A stretch of DNA of 64,000 nt from Longitalea arenae (GTDB lineage Bacteria; Bacteroidota; Bacteroidia; Chitinophagales; Chitinophagaceae): the NCBI RefSeq assembly GCF_016924755.1, contig NZ_JAFFJX010000002.1, positions 434,001-498,000 on the forward strand, written 5' to 3'. A program made the translations under genes and the position numbers. Shown here piece after piece: positions 3,277-46,540 of this stretch (position 1 is the stretch's first letter; every line of letters begins with the position of its first letter). The notes under the pieces were generated by a model, which saw nothing but the letters and a program-made list of their open reading frames with translations, was not told the origin of the DNA and did no database searches.

Positions 3277-4107
3277 GTGAGTGGAAAAAAGCAATTATAC
3301 GTAATTAAGATTGGGGGCAATATTATAGATGATGAGTATAAGCTCACCAATTTTCTCAAACAATTTGCGAATCTCTCCTCTCCCCGCCAGTTGGCGGGGC
3401 CGGACGCACCGGAGGTACATAAGATCCTCATTCATGGCGGTGGCAAACTGGCTACCAAACTGGCTGAGCAAATGAATATTCCGCAACAAATGATCGATGG
3501 CCGCCGCATTACCGATGCAGAGACCCTGAAGATCGTTACCATGGTGTATGCCGGTTATATCAATAAAAATATCGTAGCCCAGCTTCAGGCGAATAATTGT
3601 AATGCCATTGGATTAACCGGTGCCGACGGCAACGTGATACTGGCGCATAAAAGAAATCATCCGACTATTGACTACGGTTTTGCCGGTGATGTAGACACCA
3701 TTGACACGAACCTGTTGAAAAGCATCCTCGATCAGCAGATCGCTGTGGTGATGGCCCCTATTACGCACGATCAAAAAGGGCAGTTGCTGAACACCAATGC
3801 TGATACCATTGCCCAGGAAGTAGCCAACGCCTTGAGCACCCTCTACGATGTTCAGTTGATCTACTCGTTTGAGAAAAGCGGGGTGCTGCTCGATGCCAAT
3901 GACGATAACACGGTAATTTCATCTATTAACCCGGCCTATTACCAGCAATTGAAATCAGAACAAAAAATATTCGCTGGTATGATCCCTAAACTGGATAACG
4001 CTTTTGCTGCCCTGAACCGGGGAGTAAAAAAAGTGATCATCGGCAAGGCCGAACAGTTAACCGATCTCATCACCGGCAAGGCCGGAACAAGCATTGTACA
4101 TGAGTAA
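3277..4107 (+). CDS. argB: N-acetylglutamate/N-succinylglutamate kinase
   Basis: An amino-acid-kinase-fold enzyme that phosphorylates N-acyl-glutamate. It starts with GTG at 3277 (MSGKKQLYVIKIGG); the KIGGN and LIHGGGK (51-57) phosphate-binding motifs follow. It has 276 residues, against about 257-260 for related proteins as I recall them. The excess is residues 34-48 (SSPRQLAGPDAPEVH), encoded by a 45-bp GC-rich palindromic segment lying between the first helix and the HGGG loop. That position is a surface turn in the family, so activity may be kept. The stop overlaps the argE start by 8 bases, which implies translational coupling. Confidence 0.93.
   Translation: MSGKKQLYVIKIGGNIIDDEYKLTNFLKQFANLSSPRQLAGPDAPEVHKILIHGGGKLATKLAEQMNIPQQMIDGRRITDAETLKIVTMVYAGYINKNIVAQLQANNCNAIGLTGADGNVILAHKRNHPTIDYGFAGDVDTIDTNLLKSILDQQIAVVMAPITHDQKGQLLNTNADTIAQEVANALSTLYDVQLIYSFEKSGVLLDANDDNTVISSINPAYYQQLKSEQKIFAGMIPKLDNAFAALNRGVKKVIIGKAEQLTDLITGKAGTSIVHE
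3376..3420. repeat. In-frame palindromic insertion in argB
   Basis: The core is CCCCGCC (3382-3388), loop AGTT, GGCGGGG (3393-3399). Outer CCTC and GGAGG stretches extend the symmetry. The segment is 45 bases, a multiple of three, and encodes residues that have no counterpart in typical ArgB. Confidence 0.7.
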
Positions 4108-5173
4108 TCTTACATTACATACCCTTCAGCATAGCGCTGTAGAATTACTGAAGCAGTTGATCAGCACCCCTTCCTTCAGTAAAGAAGAAGACAAAACAGC
4201 TGATATCCTGAAAACCTTCCTCGAAAACTATGGTGTAGCGGCAAAAACCGTTAAACACAACGTGTATGCCCGCAACGCTTCTTTCGACGACAGCAAACCA
4301 ACGATCTTATTGAACTCGCACCACGATACGGTAAAGCCCAATAAGAATTATACCCTCGATCCTTTCACCCCGGTTGAAAAAGACGGCAAACTATTCGGCC
4401 TCGGCAGCAATGATGCCGGCGGTCCCCTGGTGGCATTGATAGCTACCTTTCTATATTTCAATCAGCGAGCTGATCTTAAATACAATGTGGTATTAGCGGC
4501 TTCCGCAGAAGAAGAGATCAGTGGCAAGGACGGCATAGAACTGGTACTGCCTCATCTTGGTAAAATAGATTGCGCCATTGTAGGCGAACCGACCCAAATG
4601 CAAATGGCGGTGGCTGAACGCGGACTCATGGTGCTGGATTGTATAGCGCATGGCAAAGCCGGTCATGCCGCCCGCAATGAAGGGGAGAACAGCATTTATA
4701 AAGCCATAAAAGATATAAGCTGGTTTCAATCGTACCAGTTCCCTAAGGTATCTGACCTGCTGGGACCGGTAAAAATGAGCGTAACGGTCATTGAAACCGA
4801 TAATAAAGCGCATAACGTAGTGCCTGCTCAAACAAAGTTTGTGGTAGATACGCGGGTGAATGAGTTGTACACCTTTGAAGAGATCCTGGACACCATTCAC
4901 CAGCATGTGCAGTGTGAAGTAGCGCCCCGCAGTACACGGTTACGCTCCACTTCCATTGCCCTCGATCATCCATTGGTTCAATCAGGTGTTGCATTAGGCA
5001 GAACGTATTACGGCTCTCCTACTACCTCCGACAAAGCCCTGATGCCTTTCCAGGCCCTGAAAATGGGCCCCGGCGATTCAGCACGCAGCCATACGGCGGA
5101 TGAGTATATTTACATAAATGAGATTCTGGAAGGAATAGAGATATATATTAAATTGTTAGAAAACATACTGTAA
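4100..5173 (+). CDS. argE: M20-family acyl-ornithine/acyl-citrulline deacylase
   Basis: An M20 metallopeptidase that removes the acyl group in arginine synthesis. In organisms with ArgF' the substrate is expected to be N-acyl-citrulline. The metal ligands are visible in LLNSHHDTVKP, LGSNDAGGP and AEEEISG, and VGEPTQMQ follows. The start is taken as ATG 4100 (MSNLTLHT), which overlaps the argB stop by 8 bases; an upstream TTG at 4094 is possible but less likely. The protein has 357 residues. The stop is followed by a family A array and a four-helix-bundle gene before argH. Confidence 0.9.
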   Translation: MSNLTLHTLQHSAVELLKQLISTPSFSKEEDKTADILKTFLENYGVAAKTVKHNVYARNASFDDSKPTILLNSHHDTVKPNKNYTLDPFTPVEKDGKLFGLGSNDAGGPLVALIATFLYFNQRADLKYNVVLAASAEEEISGKDGIELVLPHLGKIDCAIVGEPTQMQMAVAERGLMVLDCIAHGKAGHAARNEGENSIYKAIKDISWFQSYQFPKVSDLLGPVKMSVTVIETDNKAHNVVPAQTKFVVDTRVNELYTFEEILDTIHQHVQCEVAPRSTRLRSTSIALDHPLVQSGVALGRTYYGSPTTSDKALMPFQALKMGPGDSARSHTADEYIYINEILEGIEIYIKLLENIL

Positions 5174-5180
5174 TTAATTG

Positions 5181-5230
5181 TTACAGGTTACCAGTCACCG
5201 ATAACCAGTCGCCGGTTACCAGACACCAGG
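5181..5230. repeat. Family A heptamer array, left arm of four-helix-bundle cassette 1
   Basis: About seven degenerate heptamers (TTACCAG, TCACCGA, TAACCAG, TCGCCGG and similar) begin 8 bases after the argE stop. The orientation is RCCRGTT on the plus strand, opposite to the array downstream of the four-helix-bundle gene. Confidence 0.75.
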
Positions 5231-5290
5231 AATACAGAACGTGGTTAATACTTTGATTAGAGTGCATTTTATAATAAAAATCACTCTATT

Positions 5291-5668
5291 ATGTCAAGTT
5301 ACCGGGACCTGGACATTTATAAAGAATCAAAACGCCTGGCTATTGAGATTCACAAAATGACGATGTCCTTACCCAAACACGAGTTATTTGAAGAAGGGAG
5401 TCAAATAAGACGTTCTTCGAAATCAATTGCATCGATGATTGTAGAAGGATACGGTAGAAGAAGATATAAAGGCGACTTTATTAAATACTTAATATTTTCT
5501 CAATCTGAATGTGACGAAACAATAGTACATCTGGATTTTCTATTTGAAACAAATTCTCTCAGCGACGCTGAGGTATATAAAAAATTGAGAAGCGATTACG
5601 ACCTATTAAGTAAAAGAATTAATAAGTATATTCAGTGGGTAGAATCAAATCTCAACGATTTCAATTAA
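5291..5668 (+). CDS. Four-helix-bundle protein (S23/IVS-type, TIGR02436-like)
   Basis: A 125-residue, mostly helical, charged protein. The sequence (YRDLDIYKESKRLAIEIHKMT near the N-terminus, then EEGSQIRRSSKSIASMIVEG) is that of the four-helix-bundle family. Its members include proteins encoded by intervening sequences in 23S rRNA genes, and it is related to the Avd protein of diversity-generating retroelements. No enzymatic motif is visible and the molecular role is unknown. The gene is clearly more AT-rich than argE and argH, interrupts the arg operon, and is bracketed by family A arrays in opposite orientation (5181-5230 and 5678-5740), which suggests it arrived as a unit. No reverse transcriptase or rRNA gene lies nearby. 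Confidence 0.85.
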   Translation: MSSYRDLDIYKESKRLAIEIHKMTMSLPKHELFEEGSQIRRSSKSIASMIVEGYGRRRYKGDFIKYLIFSQSECDETIVHLDFLFETNSLSDAEVYKKLRSDYDLLSKRINKYIQWVESNLNDFN

Positions 5669-5677
5669 CAAAACAAA

Positions 5678-5740
5678 GTAACAGGGTACTGTATCTGGTA
5701 GCCGGCCCGGCAACCGGAAACCGGTAACCGGAAACTGAAA
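5678..5740. repeat. Family A array, right arm of four-helix-bundle cassette 1
   Basis: Units such as GCAACCG, GAAACCG, GTAACCG and GAAACTG run right up to the argH start codon. They are the reverse complement of the left-arm units, so the two arms could pair across the gene. Confidence 0.75.
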
Positions 5741-5744
5741 CATA

Positions 5745-7046
5745 ATGAAACTCTGGAGCAAAGAATCAACCAGCACTTCACAACTAGTAGAGCAATTCAC
5801 CGTAGGCCGCGATAAGGAATTTGATTTCCTTCTGGCAAAATACGATGTGCAGGGTTCTATAGCACATGTACGCATGCTGGGCGAAGTAGGTTTAATGTCG
5901 AAAGAAGAAGCCGATACCGCTGTAAAAGGACTGGAAGCTATTGCTGCCGACATTGAAGAGGGCCGCTTCCGCATTGAAGAAGGCATTGAAGATGTACACT
6001 CCCAGGTTGAATTCATACTTACCCAACGCATCGGCGAAGCCGGCAAAAAGATCCATAGCGGCCGCAGCCGGAACGACCAGGTAGCGGTTGATATAAAATT
6101 ATACCTGCGCGCGGAAGTACTGGCAATAAAACAGGAAGTAAAAGAAACGTTCGACCTGCTGATCGCCCAGAGTGAAAAATTCAAAGACCATTTATTACCT
6201 GGATATACACACCTGCAGATCGCCATGCCCTCCTCTTTTGGATTATGGCTGGGCGCTTATGCGGAAAGCCTTACCGACGATATGGAAGGCCTGGCAGCCG
6301 CCTTCCAGGTAGCCAACAAAAACCCATTGGGCAGTGGCGCCGGATATGGCTCTTCCTTCCCATTAAACAGAAAACGGACTACAGAATTACTGGGCTTCAA
6401 AACCCTGAACTGGAATTCGGTATACGCCCAAATGAGCCGTGGGAAAACTGAAAGAGTGATTGCTACAGCCCTGTCGGGCATTGCGGGCACTATCGGCCGC
6501 CTGGCCATGGATTGCTGTTTATATATCAATCAGAATTTCGGGTTTATCTCCTTCCCTTCCGAATTAACGACCGGCAGCAGTATCATGCCGCATAAAAAGA
6601 ACCCCGATGTTTTTGAGCTGATCAGGGCCAAATGCAACCGCATTGTGGCAGTTCCGAATGAACTATCGCTCCTGCTCGCAAATCTGCCCTCGGGGTATCA
6701 CCGCGACCTGCAGCTGACCAAGGAAATCTTATTCCCGGCTATTGAGGAATTAAAAGCCTGTCTGCAAATGACCCGCTTAATGCTGCAGCACCTGTCGGTT
6801 AAAACGAATATCCTGGATGACGAGAAATACAAATACCTGTTTAGTGTAGAAGCCGTGAATGAACTGGTGAACAAAGGCATTCCTTTCCGTGAAGCGTATA
6901 AACAGGTAGGTAACCAGATCGAAGAAGGCGAGTTCGCCTTCGATTATAAAAAACAGCTGCAGCACGTGCACGAAGGGAGTATTGGAAACCTCTGTAATGA
7001 CGAGATCGTGGGGGTAATGAATGGGGTATTGCAGAAATTTAGTTAG
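5745..7046 (+). CDS. argH: Argininosuccinate lyase
   Basis: It cleaves argininosuccinate to arginine and fumarate, the last step of the pathway. It belongs to the fumarase/aspartase superfamily: HSGRSRNDQ and the signature GSSIMPHKKNPD, whose Ser278-279 are the expected catalytic loop residues, are present. At 433 residues it is slightly shorter than many homologues, which lack nothing obvious here. The ATG at 5745 directly follows the repeat array. argG (argininosuccinate synthase) is not in the window and probably lies upstream of argC. The gene ends the operon; a convergent pair of family A arrays follows its stop immediately. Confidence 0.95.
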   Translation: MKLWSKESTSTSQLVEQFTVGRDKEFDFLLAKYDVQGSIAHVRMLGEVGLMSKEEADTAVKGLEAIAADIEEGRFRIEEGIEDVHSQVEFILTQRIGEAGKKIHSGRSRNDQVAVDIKLYLRAEVLAIKQEVKETFDLLIAQSEKFKDHLLPGYTHLQIAMPSSFGLWLGAYAESLTDDMEGLAAAFQVANKNPLGSGAGYGSSFPLNRKRTTELLGFKTLNWNSVYAQMSRGKTERVIATALSGIAGTIGRLAMDCCLYINQNFGFISFPSELTTGSSIMPHKKNPDVFELIRAKCNRIVAVPNELSLLLANLPSGYHRDLQLTKEILFPAIEELKACLQMTRLMLQHLSVKTNILDDEKYKYLFSVEAVNELVNKGIPFREAYKQVGNQIEEGEFAFDYKKQLQHVHEGSIGNLCNDEIVGVMNGVLQKFS

Positions 7047-7174
7047 CCTGTCGCCGGTCGCCAGTTACCGGTTGCCCGGCCTTGAACTTTAAACCTGTTT
7101 ACAATTAATCGGACAGCTGAAATCAGTTACCGGCAACCGGTACCTGGTACCTGGTAACTGGTAACCGGTAACTG
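7047..7174. repeat. Convergent family A array pair between argH and the M28 gene
   Basis: The left arm (7047-7080, CCGGTCGCCAGTTACCGG-like) starts at the base after the argH stop. The right arm (7124-7174) is in reverse orientation (GGTAACTGGTAACCGGTAAC). The spacer is about 43 bases. As RNA it would form a long imperfect hairpin between two convergent genes, so it may also end transcription. Confidence 0.75.
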
Positions 7175-12514: not shown

Positions 12515-12595
12515 CGGTCGCCGGTTACCAGTCGCCGGTTACAGGTTGCAGGGAAGTTCTATTGGCGTTGCCGTGTAACCTGAACCTGTAACCTC
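12515..12595. repeat. Convergent family A array pair after dxs
   Basis: The left arm 12515-12552 (CCGGTCGCCGGTTACCAG and on) begins two bases after the stop. The right arm 12572-12595 (TGTAACCTGAACCTGTAACC) is inverted. The spacer is about 20 bases. The rest of the spacer to the next gene (to 12729) holds only a weak hairpin (AGCCT-ATCA-AGGCT, near 12683). Confidence 0.7.
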
Positions 12596-13554: not shown

Positions 13555-13679
13555 GTGCTTCTGTTTTTTCAATATCCCAATGGGAGCCAACAAACCTACG
13601 CCAAAAAAACAATTGCAGGAAATTAGCGGAAGCGCCCGGCCGATATTGTATATAAGTTGTGAAAAGGATGATGATTTTG

Positions 13680-13780
13680 TTACCAGTTACCGGTTGCCAG
13701 GTACCTGGGCTTGAATTTCGATCATTCTTCCCATTGCAGCGTCTTAAAATTTGTAGCTCGGTGACCGGAAACCGGCAACT
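13680..13780. repeat. Convergent family A array pair upstream of scpA
   Basis: The left arm 13680-13709 (TTACCAGTTACCGGTTGCC) and the inverted right arm 13758-13780 (GTGACCGGAAACCGGCAAC) flank a spacer of about 48 bases. It lies between the DUF3078 gene stop and the scpA start, both minus strand. Confidence 0.7.
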
Positions 13781-17082: not shown

Positions 17083-17250
17083 ATTTCTGATTTCGAGATT
17101 TCTGATTTAGAGATTTCTGATTTCGAGATTTTGAGATTTAGAGATTTTGAGATTTAGAGATTTTGAGATTTAGAGATTTTGAGATTTAGAGATTTTGAGA
17201 TTTACCAGGTATATAAAACCTGAACAGATCACAAAATCTCCATCTCCCAA
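17083..17250. repeat. Family C octamer array with short inverted partner
   Basis: From the base after the EamA stop to 17203 there are about 15 octamers, alternating GAGATTTT and GAGATTTA with CTGATTTC variants at the start. The last part is a regular 16-bp tandem. After a 27-base spacer, ACAAAATCTCCATCTCCC (17231-17248) is the inverted partner. It lies between the convergent EamA and frr genes and may serve as their terminator region. Confidence 0.8.
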
Positions 17251-17927: not shown

Positions 17928-18064
17928 AGTTACCGGGTACCGGTTTCCGGTTACCGGCGCCCTCATTGCAGATTAATAATTGTAATTCCAGCTTCATGCG
18001 CCTCGGGGGGTGCTCCCTTCCCGGCAACTGGTAACTGGCAACTGGTAACTGGTAACCGGTAACT
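17928..18064. repeat. Convergent family A array pair between frr and the wecA-like gene
   Basis: The left arm 17928-17961 (GTTACCGGGTACCGG and on) and the inverted right arm 18019-18064 (GCAACTGGTAACTGG repeated) flank a spacer of about 57 bases. The right arm runs into the stop codon of the wecA-like gene (stop at 18063-18065). Confidence 0.75.
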
Positions 18065-21612: not shown

Positions 21613-21674
21613 TAGTATATGTTTGAATTGTGGTTGGTGAGTAGACGTAAATGATCGCCTTTATTTTTCACTAA

Positions 21675-21763
21675 CTGCTACAAGTTCCAGGGTTCAGCGT
21701 ACAGGGCCTCAATTACTGACGTGCCTTATTACCCCTGCAACCTGTACCTTGCAACCTGTAACC
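21675..21763. repeat. Degenerate family A array pair before the rbfA stop
   Basis: The left arm (21675-21705, CTACAAGTTCCAGGGTTCAG and on) is decayed. The right arm (21731-21763, CCTGCAACCTGTACCTTGCAACC) is inverted and clearer, and ends three bases from the rbfA stop. Confidence 0.6.
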
Positions 21764-21765
21764 GC

Positions 21766-24030: not shown

Positions 24031-24190
24031 TACCTGGGTGCCGGTTACCAGTTACCGGTTGCCGGTTGCCAATTACCAGTTACCGGTTACCAGTTACCGG
24101 TTACCAGTTACCAGGCGTCAACGGCAGGGCAAGTATGGCAGCAACCATCAGAACTTTCAGGCCCGGTAACCGGTAACTGGTAACCGGCGA
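24031..24190. repeat. Large convergent family A array pair after the ABC exporter
   Basis: The left arm 24031-24115 holds about 12 heptamers (ACCAGTT and ACCGGTT alternating) starting two bases after the stop codon. The right arm 24161-24190 is inverted (CCGGTAACCGGTAACTGGTAA). The spacer is about 45 bases. It is among the best-preserved pairs in the window. The rest up to 24300 shows nothing further. Confidence 0.8.
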
Positions 24191-24300
24191 CGCTGCCTTT
24201 TCCATTTGCCAGTCGTCAATTGGTTCAACCACTCACCCTTCAAACCTTATCCAAGTTATCTAAATAGCTAATTTTCTATCCTAAACAATAAAATCGCTAC

Positions 24301-30999: not shown

Positions 31000-31153
31000 G
31001 TTACCGCTTGTTGCCGGTTGCCGGTTGCCGGTTACCGGTTACCAGTTACCAGTTGCCGGTTACCCGGTTGCTGGTTGCTGGTTGTCGGTTGCCGGTTGCC
31101 AGTTGGTTGCCAGTTGCCAGTTGGTTGCCAGTTGCCGGTTGCCGGTTGCCGGT
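31000..31153. repeat. Longest family A heptamer array (upstream of ileS)
   Basis: Some 20 heptamers of the RCCRGTT type (TTGCCGG, TTACCAG, TTGCTGG) run in one orientation, with two TTGCCAGTTGG interruptions. It has no clear inverted partner, unlike most other copies. From 31154 to about 31230 lies an AT-richer stretch of TTCAAAG/TTCAGTTC words that may be another, decayed repeat. Confidence 0.8.
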
Positions 31154-32189: not shown

Positions 32190-32500
32190 GATCGTTGAAA
32201 AAATCGTTCAATTCGTATAAAAAACTGTTCGGTTCATGCAACAAACACTGCCAGTTTATTTAACAAACAGGTTCAGTTTGTTCAATAAACAGGTACAGTT
32301 TGTTCAATAAACAGCTTCAGTTTGTTCAATAAACGCTTCTGATTTTTCAATGATTGATACCTGTTTGTTCAATGAATTGGGTGCAACTATTCAATAAACC
32401 ATAGCTGGTTGTTCAACAAACTGGTACTGATTGTTGAATAAAGTGGTATTGATCGTTCAATAAACTGATATTGATTGTTCAATGAATTGAGGTGCAAATC
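32190..32500. repeat. Degenerate 22-bp tandem array (TTGTTCAATAAAC units)
   Basis: Between 11 and 14 units with a period of 22 bases (21-23 in some). The core is CAGTTTGTTCAATAAACAGG, best preserved in three successive units near 32268-32333. Each core contains GTTTGTTCAATAAAC with inverted ends. Unit variants include TTCAATGAATTG and TTCAACAAACTG. There is no spacer/repeat division as in CRISPR and no reading frame. Confidence 0.8.
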
Positions 32501-35832: not shown

Positions 35833-35945
35833 GGTCAACGGTAAATAGTGAATGGTGAAAAGAGCCCGGTTCGCGAGGTCAACAATTAACACGGGAATCA
35901 GAAATTTCTTGACCTCATTCACCATTGACCATTCACCATTGACGA
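35833..35945. repeat. Convergent family B array pair between hemA and hemC
   Basis: The left arm (35833-35860, GGTCAACGGTAAATAGTGAATGG) begins four bases after the hemA stop. The right arm (35914-35945, ATTCACCATTGACCATTCACC and on) is inverted. The spacer is about 50 bases. The hemC -7 element follows at once. Confidence 0.75.
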
Positions 35946-35979: not shown

Positions 35980-36930
35980 ATGAATAAAGTGATCCGTATT
36001 GGAACCAGGGAAAGCCAACTTGCGGTTTGGCAGGCTACCCAGGTGCAGAACCTGTTAATGCAGTTTGGATTTTCCGCAGAACTGGTATATATAAAAAGCG
36101 AAGGGGATATCGATCTCAAAACACCGTTGTATGAAATGGGCGTACAGGGCATCTTTACCCGCAGCCTGGATCTTGCCCTGCTGAATGACCGCATCGATAT
36201 TGCCGTGCATTCCCTGAAAGATGTGCCCACGCAATTACCCAAAGGCATTGTTACCGCTGCTGTTCTGAAAAGAGCTTCTTATAAAGATCTGTTTGTCGTC
36301 AATGGGGAATGGTCAACGGCCAATGAGGTACTGCAAATGGAGCCGCCATTCACCATGCACCATTCGCCATTCACCATAGCTACCAGCAGCATTCGCCGCA
36401 AGGCCCAATGGCTGAACCGATACCCGCAACATACCATCGAAAACCTGCGCGGCAATGTAAATACCCGCTTACAAAAGCTGGCCGATAGCCACTGGAACGG
36501 CGCTATTTTCGCTGCCGCCGGCCTCGAAAGGATCGGCTTGCGGCCGGCCCACTCCATTGAACTCGACTGGATGTTGCCTGCTCCCGCACAGGGCGCTATT
36601 GTAGTTGCCTGCCGCCATGATGATGAATATGCTTTTGAAGCCTGCCGCTTATTTAATGATGCGGATACTGCTTTATGCACTGCCATTGAGCGGGATTTCT
36701 TAAGGGCCCTGCTGGGCGGTTGCTCTACACCGATCAGCGCCCTGGCAAGTATCGTGAACGGTGAGCTTCATTTTGAAGGGAATATCTTGTCGCTGGATGG
36801 AAAAGAGAAAGCCAGCATTGAAAAAACAGTGGCCGTGAACAACTGTGACAAACTCGGCGTTATTGCCGCCAACGAATTATTAGCAAATGGCGGACAGGTT
36901 ATCGCCGATAAGATCCGAAATGCCAAATAA
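35980..36930 (+). CDS. hemC: Porphobilinogen deaminase (hydroxymethylbilane synthase)
   Basis: It polymerises four porphobilinogens into hydroxymethylbilane. The family motifs GTRESQLAVWQ, HSLKDVPTQLP and TSSIRRKAQW are present, and Cys248 in LLGGCSTPIS holds the dipyrromethane cofactor. It has 316 residues. Residues about 107-132 (from VVNGEW to HHSPFTI) are an extra stretch between KDLF and ATSSIRRKAQ that typical HemC does not have. Its DNA (36298-36376) is an inverted pair of family B arrays. The hemD start overlaps its end by 11 bases. Confidence 0.93.
   Translation: MNKVIRIGTRESQLAVWQATQVQNLLMQFGFSAELVYIKSEGDIDLKTPLYEMGVQGIFTRSLDLALLNDRIDIAVHSLKDVPTQLPKGIVTAAVLKRASYKDLFVVNGEWSTANEVLQMEPPFTMHHSPFTIATSSIRRKAQWLNRYPQHTIENLRGNVNTRLQKLADSHWNGAIFAAAGLERIGLRPAHSIELDWMLPAPAQGAIVVACRHDDEYAFEACRLFNDADTALCTAIERDFLRALLGGCSTPISALASIVNGELHFEGNILSLDGKEKASIEKTVAVNNCDKLGVIAANELLANGGQVIADKIRNAK
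36298..36376. repeat. Inverted family B array pair inside hemC
   Basis: The left arm is AATGGGGAATGGTCAACGG and on (36301-36327), the right arm CCATTCACCATGCACCATT and on (36349-36380). They are in opposite orientation with a spacer of about 20 bases, the same layout as the intergenic pair upstream of hemC, but kept in frame. Confidence 0.8.
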
Positions 36931-38675: not shown

Positions 38676-38729
38676 AGTGTTGGGAGTTGACAAATTAAGA
38701 TGTTGAAAAGCCGACAGCGCTAATGTGAT

Positions 38730-38761
38730 TGACCATTGACCATTCACCATTGACCATTCAC
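38730..38761. repeat. Family B array upstream of hemF
   Basis: Four to five heptamers (ATTGACC and ATTCACC alternating) end four bases before the hemF ATG. A matching inverted arm is not clear in the preceding 50 bases, so it may be a half-copy. Confidence 0.7.
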
Positions 38762-39677: not shown

Positions 39678-39681
39678 AACG

Positions 39682-39775
39682 ATTTCTGATTTTGAGATTT
39701 CTGATTTTGAGATTTCGGGATTTCGGGATTTCGGGATTTCGGGATTTGGGGATTTTGGGATTTTGGGATTTCGGG
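39682..39775. repeat. Family C array, left arm of four-helix-bundle cassette 2
   Basis: Octamers of two kinds: CTGATTTT/GAGATTTC near the start, then TCGGGATT repeated about five times and a few GGGATTTT. Plus-strand orientation is GATTT, opposite to the right arm at 40198-40258. Confidence 0.8.
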
Positions 39776-39814
39776 ACTTGGAATGCGATTGATTTACAAA
39801 AGAAATCAGTCGAT

Positions 39815-40282
39815 ATGAACAAGTTTGATTTGCAAAAACGAACAAAACAATTTCATGTAAATGTAATAAAGTTGTGCAGTCGCTTTCCAAAAAACGCTGC
39901 TGGTTTCGAAACAGCCAAACAACTGATAAGAGCAGCAGGATCCGTTGGTGCGAATTACAGAGCTGGCTGCCGCGCAAAGTCAAATGCAGATTTTATTTAT
40001 AAGATCGAATTGGTTCTGGAAGAAGCTGATGAATCACTTTATTGGCTTCAGCTTACAAAAGAAGCGGAATTAGTGCAAGGAAATGATTTAGAAGCATTGA
40101 TAAAGGAAGCGAATGAATTAGTAAGCATTTTCAATGCAAGCGACAAAACAGCCAAAAGAAACAAAGCGAACAATCTTACTAAAAAAAATAACAGGTTAAA
40201 TTTTGATTTTGAGATTCCGGCAAAATCCAAAAATCTCAAAATCGCAAAATCAAAAAATTGTATTTATGTATTTGCAGCGTAG
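39815..40282 (+). CDS. Four-helix-bundle protein (S23/IVS-type), second copy
   Basis: A helical protein of 155 residues from ATG 39815 (MNKFDLQKRTKQFHVNVI). The family pattern is seen in ELVLEEADESLYWLQL and in GSVGANYRAGCRAKSNADF. It belongs to the same family as the gene at 5291 but is only distantly similar. Function unknown. The C-terminal tail (about residues 128-155, KSKNLKIAKSK and on) is encoded by the inverted family C array and overlaps the hemB start by 17 bases. An open frame upstream to 39668 consists only of translated repeat and is not counted. The gene is AT-richer than the heme genes around it. Confidence 0.82.
   Translation: MNKFDLQKRTKQFHVNVIKLCSRFPKNAAGFETAKQLIRAAGSVGANYRAGCRAKSNADFIYKIELVLEEADESLYWLQLTKEAELVQGNDLEALIKEANELVSIFNASDKTAKRNKANNLTKKNNRLNFDFEIPAKSKNLKIAKSKNCIYVFAA
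40198..40262. repeat. Family C array, right arm of four-helix-bundle cassette 2
   Basis: AAATCTCAAAATCGCAAAATC is the reverse complement of GATTTTGCGATTTTGAGATTT and so matches the left-arm octamers in opposite orientation. It codes for the tail of the four-helix-bundle protein and runs to four bases before the hemB ATG. Confidence 0.75.
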
Positions 40283-46498: not shown

Positions 46499-46540
46499 AA
46501 CGGTCAATGGTCAATAGTCAATGGTCAATGGTGAATGAAT
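46499..46540. repeat. Family B array between the AraC gene and the M23 gene
   Basis: GGTCAATGGTCAATAGTCAATGG and on, about five heptamers in one orientation. The remaining 46541-46806 is a spacer with GC-poor, unrecognised sequence and the degenerate family A words TGCCAGTT and CCTGTAAC. Confidence 0.7.

Follow-up and report, generated by a model that had tools for sequence, protein, structure and literature searches.

An S23 gene between inverted heptamer arrays

The window, the whole stretch of 64,000 nucleotides of Longitalea arenae that was analysed, carries between argE and argH an open reading frame of 125 aa belonging to the S23/IVP family (Table 1). The names of the two neighbours were taken from the preliminary description of this sequence, and Pfam assigns them to Peptidase_M20 and Lyase_1. 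The encoded protein scored 91.4 bits against PF05635 (cut-off 33.8) and 94.7 bits against TIGR02436 (cut-off 24), and the GC content of its gene is 0.336, as opposed to 0.468 and 0.481 in the two neighbour genes, in agreement with the preliminary description of an S23/IVS-type gene more AT-rich than both. A search of Pfam-A returned PF05635 alone, with no catalytic and no transposase domain. The AlphaFold2 model (mean pLDDT 93.4) has four helices and was matched by Foldseek to 2GSC (XCC0516; TMq up to 0.87), 2RLD and, more weakly, Avd (4DWL); the predicted fold is the four-helix bundle seen in 2GSC.

The left array consists of the units GTTACCA, GTCACCG, ATAACCA, GTCGCCG, GTTACCA and GACACCA, and the right array of GTTACCR units of the inverted type, including CGGCAACCGGAAACCGGTAACCGG. 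When the left array was compared with the reverse complement of the right a score of 20 was obtained, which was reached in none of 2000 base shuffles (maximum 15), and the earlier claim that heptamers of opposite orientation flank the gene was thus borne out. Part of the arms pairs around the gene in the predicted RNA fold of the element (z -4.96 relative to shuffles). The IVS-like layout proposed for this locus was also recovered, in that the S23 ORF lies between complementary ends and outside rRNA; an Rfam search of the window gave no match.

A second S23 gene of the window lies between the genes for coproporphyrinogen oxidase and ALAD (hemF-hemB) and is bracketed by an 8-mer, GATTTCGG/GATTTTGA, unrelated to GTTACCR. 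The genome as a whole encodes six PF05635-family genes, all six of which are bracketed by inverted short tandem arrays (as judged by eye; scores 21-26), and the six brackets are all different: GTTACCR, CAATAAG/CAATTGG, GTTCAAT/GTTCATA, GTTTATG, GTGCTAAT-type and GATTTCGG. The search for further four-helix-bundle genes next to arrays that the preliminary description had suggested therefore found them at all six genes of this genome, and more in relatives and in other phyla (see below); its treatment of the heptamers as one "family A", on the other hand, did not hold, as S23 genes of one genome mostly appear to carry different repeats. One of the six genes (G000:C1:168736-169050) has an in-frame stop and still keeps its bracket.

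Two other kinds of repeat were observed in the window. Arrays of CATTGACC/CATTCACC, a second abundant repeat family of this genome and one for which no cognate S23 gene is known here, are found at 35909-35943, 36346-36377, 38728-38761 and 46502-46537, and 22-bp tandem repeats of a different nature (CAGTTTGTTCAATAAACAGGTT, about nine copies) occupy 32252-32483.

Table 1. S23 elements, host genes and repeat arrays of the window, in window coordinates
Feature	Coordinates	Strand	Basis or remark
argE-type gene (Peptidase_M20), upstream host	4103..5173	+	ORF, Pfam; argE-argH adjacent in relatives compared
Left arm, six 7-bp GTTACCR-type units	5187..5230	+	Begins 13 bp past argE stop codon
S23/IVP four-helix-bundle gene	5291..5668	+	PF05635, TIGR02436, AlphaFold2, Foldseek
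Right arm, GTTACCR family, inverted	5695..5738	-	Ends approximate
argH (Lyase_1), downstream host gene	5745..7046	+	ORF, Pfam
Free inverted pair behind argH, GTTACCR family	7050..7172	.	Arms 7050-7070/7152-7172
Single array, GTTACCR family	12517..12537	+
Free inverted pair, GTTACCR family	13679..13779	.
Free 8-mer array (GATTTAGA)	17089..17204	+	Family of second S23 element
Free inverted pair, GTTACCR family	17929..18063	.
Free inverted pair, GTTACCR family	24044..24191	.	Arms 24044-24113/24164-24191
Long arrays of single orientation, GTTACCR family	31010..31151	+
Left 8-mer arm of second S23 element	39681..39776	+	GATTTCGG/GATTTTGA
Second S23/IVP gene, hemF-hemB	39815..40282	+	Pfam; reading frame continues through own right arm
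Right arm of second S23 element	40221..40262	-	End approximate

Brackets in relatives, in other phyla and on plasmids

PF05635 was detected in 25 of 29 genomes, the present one included (152 matches), and in none of 14 control genomes. At each locus the upstream flank was compared with the reverse complement of the downstream flank, a score of at least 16 being counted as a pass. The test covered, among the matches listed, 108 of the 152 (107 loci once two fragments had been joined) from 25 genomes; the loci were chosen regardless of their flanks and include partial and broken genes. Inverted matching flanks were found at 94 of the 107 loci, compared with 4.7% of flanks swapped between genes, and the corresponding figures in a first set were 78 of 85 loci and 331 of 7140 swapped combinations. 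Lags of 7 or 8 bp were the commonest best period within the arms. The bracket is specific to S23 genes: among other ORFs of 80 aa or more in 856 kb from the nine genomes of the genus, 15 of 640 passed, and 1 of 74 among those of 80-160 aa. A conserved inner motif beside the arms, (A/G)TACA, was considered and dropped, being present in only 19 and 13 of 94.

A scan of genome contigs gave at least 578 relatives, and the best 80 loci among these span Bacteroidota, Acidobacteria, Planctomycetes, Proteobacteria, Firmicutes, Treponema, candidate phyla and others. Matching flanks were found at 65 of the 80 (34 of 42 in Bacteroidota, 31 of 38 elsewhere), compared with 4.9% for swapped flanks. Neighbouring ORFs at these loci passed in 20 of 215 cases, a background above that of the genus and far below the S23 rate; two of the eight passing neighbours that were inspected are S23 genes themselves. 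An S23 relative was also present in 45 plasmid records, mostly cyanobacterial among the matches listed, and 8 of 14 cyanobacterial plasmid loci passed the flank test (swapped flanks, 14%). Their array types include GGGAACA, AAAAGCT and GAAGTCAG, which we take to resemble the cyanobacterial STRR heptamers. Phage records rarely contained the gene, a relative of one S23 query being found in 2 of 50,697 (E 1e-5). Loci with no scored bracket numbered 13 of 107, 15 of 80 and 6 of 14 in relatives, many phyla and plasmids, respectively, and an Rfam search of 14 S23 loci of this kind gave no match. The preliminary description had been ready to give way if arrays proved unrelated to four-helix-bundle genes; the flank test, together with the co-diversification and free-array tests below, relates the two.

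An S23 gene within an array bracket lies between cas6 and cas4 on plasmids of Pseudanabaena galeata and Anabaena sp. 90 (1189-1548 and 1183-1551 of the retrieved stretches). 23S_rRNA_IVP is counted among cas-locus genes in a part of PMC3936711; S23 in cas loci may be a passenger element and not a cas gene, which would explain that listing.

Occupied and empty junctions

The two host junctions were compared across the nine genomes of the genus (G000, the present genome, and G001-G007 and G009). Between argE and argH, gene and arrays are found in G000, G007 and G002, and also in G003 and G009, where the gene is partial (profile match 1-70 of 106) and internally deleted, respectively; in G001, G004, G005 and G006 argE and argH are separated by 19-22 bp with no array. 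Gene and arrays are thus together present in five genomes and together absent in four, the joint behaviour that the preliminary description had proposed to look for, and each of the five genomes with the gene at this site also has the arrays. At hemF-hemB the gene is free of internal stops in G000, G001, G003 and G007, is interrupted by a stop in G006, has lost an internal part but not its arms in G004, and is absent from G002, G005 and G009, the last two perhaps retaining a short scar. This co-occurrence of gene and arms, and the internally deleted forms at both junctions, indicate that the two behave as one unit able to decay to arms alone. Exact insertion ends and a target duplication were not resolved at either junction, the sites being too diverged, and short remnants at some of the empty sites could be scars.

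The standing stock of arrays was also set against the presence of the cognate gene. For GATTTNGA (GATTT), array numbers were 96, 42, 27 and 151 where the cognate gene is intact, 21 and 3 where it is broken, and 11, 1 and 1 where it is absent. The counts for GTTACC were 322, 181 and 62 with an intact gene, 83 and 29 with a partial or deleted one, and 222 (G001), 31, 16 and 1 without; G001 has its 222 arrays even though both its S23 genes carry other repeats. AAGTARG arrays numbered 130 and 34 with the gene (about half of the 130 lying in one long array), 33 in G009 and 14 in G002, where no cognate was found, and 0-4 elsewhere. AATGGTS arrays numbered 251 in G007, 190 in G001 and 132 in G000, all three without a known cognate, 62 in G006, the only genome with one, and 0-19 elsewhere; for GTTACC and AATGGTS the reversed-pattern control is unclean, as each family read backwards gives the other abundant one. 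A strict rule by which a repeat family needs its cognate gene in the same genome was not upheld by the GTTACC, AAGTARG and AATGGTS counts. A cognate gene need not be present for a genome to have a stock of arrays and, where present, does not always go with the largest one; in genomes without it the gene may have been lost once the arrays had spread, or another S23 protein may serve them.

Co-diversification of protein and repeat

Coupling between protein and repeat was assessed in pairs drawn from 101 loci with arms, using those pairs whose flanking ORFs have no protein-level similarity. Arms matched in 39 of 3295, 40 of 1202, 22 of 232, 27 of 100 and 11 of 17 pairs at protein identities of <30, 30-40, 40-50, 50-60 and 60-70%, while matches in the opposite orientation relative to the gene numbered 24, 6, 3, 2 and 3 in the same classes. 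The 17 pairs of the highest class involve 22 loci and, because pairs share loci, a locus-level permutation was added: 17.2% of the 349 pairs at or above 40% identity match, whereas 2000 permutations gave 2.8% on average and 6.6% at most. A Mantel test of arms against protein was set aside because it is confounded by shared sites. Arm and protein change together, in a fixed orientation, and both the association and the co-diversification are well supported. Among the 324 same-genome S23 pairs without homologous flanks, 7 have matching arms, oriented alike. At orthologous sites no concerted evolution of the two arms was seen, the arms of one locus matching each other no better than arms between species.

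Of 16 ortholog pairs, 10 had a finite dS, with dN/dS values of 0.04-0.09; dS was saturated in the other six. The S23 protein is thus under purifying selection, and matters to something.

Free arrays share the repertoire, order and placement of the brackets

Outside the S23 loci, 99 arrays were found in the 856 kb from the nine genomes of the genus and none in base shuffles, at a density of 10.7-17.6 per 100 kb in seven genomes and of 5.0 and 1.2 in the other two. Random 45-mers proved too lenient a control, and unit-scrambled arrays were used; since these still matched in 290 of 495 cases at a score of at least 16, scores were trusted at 20 and above only. At 22 or more, 83 of the 99 free arrays matched some S23 arm of the genus, compared with 87 of 495 scrambled arrays. 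Matches to an arm of the same genome at 20 or more numbered 45 of 99, where label shuffling predicted 33.5 (p 0.0014; at cut-offs of 16 and 18, p 0.008 and 0.014).

If the left-arm unit is written U and its reverse complement rc(U), the order U...rc(U) seen around S23 genes was found in a ratio of 17:0 among GTTACC sites of the present genome (37 sites among the matches listed, and 6 in the window) and of 15:0 over families, at least two pairs being common to both sets. Of 75 cases between co-directional genes, 65 had U towards the stop codon of the upstream gene and rc(U) towards the start of the gene that follows. In spacers of at least 40 bp, arrays were present in 65 of 275 co-directional, 23 of 92 convergent and 2 of 86 divergent spacers, so that divergent spacers are avoided, and 35 of the 65 arrays in the co-directional class start no more than 36 nt from the stop codon of the gene before them. 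S23 genes have a co-directional upstream neighbour in 98 of 106 cases, compared with 440 of 639 adjacent genes overall, and the left arm of their elements lies a median of 1 nt from the upstream stop. Predicted RNA folds of three free pairs were stronger than those of shuffles (z -4.3, -9.0 and -4.6); a single array, tested as a fourth stretch, showed no folding (z 0.5).

Empty pairs had been taken in the preliminary description for versions of the element without the gene. For the most part they do not look to be so: by eye, 16 cores of free GTTACC pairs appear unrelated, and the conserved cores that REPIN or MITE copies would have were not seen among them. Internally deleted forms do occur, at argE-argH in G009 and at hemF-hemB in G004. 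Because the cores look unrelated, the free pairs would not be copies of one unit, unlike REPINs.

Junctions of the window carry different repeat families, or none, from species to species. At the junction corresponding to 21613-21765, G007 has about four head-to-tail hairpin units of about 75 bp, and the spacers of G003, G004, G005 and G009 measure 23-27 bp. At the junction corresponding to 2132-2184, a heptamer array of G007 starts inside the 3' end of the upstream gene, the final codons of which it seems to have replaced.

A probable partnership of S23 proteins with short tandem repeats

We consider it probable that S23/IVP proteins and short tandem repeats work in partnership, each protein recognising and maintaining its own family, with hairpins seeded over time. 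An element comprises a left array U of 7-8 bp units, the gene and the inverted rc(U), usually just past the stop codon of a co-directional upstream gene with which it may be co-transcribed. The protein would recognise its own repeat family, most likely binding it as the hairpin of U and rc(U), either in the transcript or in single-stranded DNA. Acting in trans, it would maintain, and over time would have dispersed, additional U...rc(U) hairpins downstream of other genes. An action of the protein on the repeats, put forward with reserve in the preliminary description, is suggested by the co-diversification of the two, and the lead given there is real and much wider than was proposed. Against a strict partnership stand the abundant repeat families without a known cognate and the seemingly unrelated cores of the free pairs. 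The loci with no scored bracket also speak against the reading, as do orthologous sites, where arms are no more alike within a locus than between species. As Pfam found no catalytic domain in the S23 protein, any copying would need a helper. RVT_1 was present in all nine genus genomes searched, with 2-6 in each, and none of the six in G000 is on the contig of the window. One candidate helper, an open frame of 507-529 aa for a reverse transcriptase (RVT_1, 99.9-106.5 bits), was observed in the nine genus genomes (e.g. G007:C1:225892-226524).

The same placement of arrays could be read in terms of RNA regulation, in a form that overlaps with the partnership and that we regard as possible, though tentative. 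The arrays would then be hairpins of 3'-UTRs and operon junctions that are not moved, S23 binding would control mRNA processing or stability, and the gene's own bracket would serve autoregulation. The near absence of arrays from divergent spacers, their start close behind the upstream stop, the co-directional setting of S23 genes and the folding of the window element and of three free pairs, but not of a single array, are all consistent with this, as is the description in a part of PMC4990558 of 23S IVS ends that pair and are cut by RNase III. Selection against promoter disruption alone, however, would yield 3' placement too, and the presence at one junction of different repeat families, or of none, according to species would be odd for conserved regulatory sites. 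It is unlikely, by comparison, that the arrays arise by themselves through slippage and hairpin template switching and that S23 genes merely land or survive in harmless hairpins. Free arrays are indeed common in seven of the nine genomes, their unrelated cores fit hairpin-driven copying, and repeat families without a known cognate gene exist; yet arm sequence tracks protein identity at unrelated sites and in one orientation, other genes are rarely bracketed (15 of 640), and the four gene-less argE-argH sites have no array and at most a short possible scar.

Two further accounts were rejected. A 23S rRNA intervening sequence that strayed once into the arg operon would share the protein family and the paired ends, but is very improbable given that this genome has six different brackets, that the 29 genomes contain 152 family matches, that the family spans many phyla, and that 14 loci without a scored bracket gave no Rfam match. 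Chance, or a background rich in arrays as this genome indeed has, is refuted for practical purposes by the swapped-flank, other-gene, scrambled-unit and locus-permutation controls.

To our knowledge, the large S23 family has no known function outside rRNA, and the abundant heptamer repeats have no known maker; the two unknowns here become one testable question. A wider form of the partnership, which we hold to be plausible but somewhat less than probable, would make S23/IVP proteins the missing partners of the heptamers that pepper many bacterial genomes (cyanobacterial STRRs, the G-rich heptamers of Xanthomonas and Nostoc, and the arrays described here). They would form a bacteria-wide class unrelated to transposons, each protein reading a heptamer of its own, perhaps together with reverse transcription in the manner of Avd-RT, and S23-bearing 23S rRNA IVSs would be a special case landed in rRNA. 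If the partnership is true, each S23 gene (at least 578 relatives) brings with it a readable candidate target in its own bracket; binding, specificity and mechanism would become systematically testable, many repeat families could be assigned to a gene, and an origin for the 23S rRNA IVSs would be suggested. A link between S23 genes and heptamer arrays was not found in those parts of the open-licence literature that were consulted.

Comparison with known systems

The comparison below draws on parts of the cited papers. The 23S rRNA IVSs with an S23 ORF, the function and origin of which are said to remain unclear, have the same protein family and hold the ORF within complementary, stem-forming ends (PMC4990558), as is seen here. 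They sit, however, in the 23S rRNA gene, whereas the window element lies between argE and argH and has no Rfam match, and S23 elements in general differ in occurring in protein operons, in having tandem arrays as ends and in having many dispersed gene-less copies.

Heptamers similar in order and placement to the present arrays, GGGAATC and GGGGA(C/T)T, have been described in Xanthomonas and Nostoc by Rehm et al. 2015 (PMC4692102), without mention of a protein partner in the parts consulted; the terms "S23" and "four helix" do not occur in the main text of that paper. A pattern of three GGGAATC units had no match in 274 sampled genomes of one class, among which Xanthomonas may not be included. 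The TAACTGA repeats of Beggiatoaceae, Cyanobacteria and Bacteroidetes (PMC4679880) are likewise intergenic heptamers of patchy distribution. In contrast to the inverted arrays, they are repeated in direct orientation and, in the genome on which that study centred, mostly lie shortly before start codons, and "S23", "four helix" and "intervening" are absent from the main text.

The DGR accessory protein Avd shares its fold with the S23 model (4DWL, TMq 0.76; 8UB8, TMq 0.71 by Foldseek), at E-values of 0.1-0.5 and identities of 9-10%, and two related S23 proteins match Pfam bAvd below the cut-off. Avd works with a reverse transcriptase, and we know of no bracketing arrays as a feature of DGRs. 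PF05635 has been likened to Avd (PMC10053308).

A parallel in organisation is offered by REPIN/RAYT (PMC3116915), whose RAYT protein, a relative of IS200/IS605, is a tyrosine transposase and whose REP repeats are palindromes set at a conserved spacing. As with S23 elements, a single-copy gene stands beside its own extragenic repeats, several distinct gene-repeat pairs exist per genome, and extragenic inverted doublets of the gene-flanking repeat are dispersed over the genome, which is also the situation here. With regard to one gene per repeat family per genome, arms are shared by 7 of the 324 same-genome S23 pairs, but some families have no known gene. The two systems differ in their parts: the window protein has PF05635 only where RAYT has a tyrosine (Y1-type) transposase, and S23 arrays are tandem units of 7-8 bp around cores of varying length and sequence where REPs are palindromes of conserved spacing. 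On our best reading, the S23 partnership would be REPIN/RAYT-like in logic, with an unrelated protein of Avd-like fold and no transposase.
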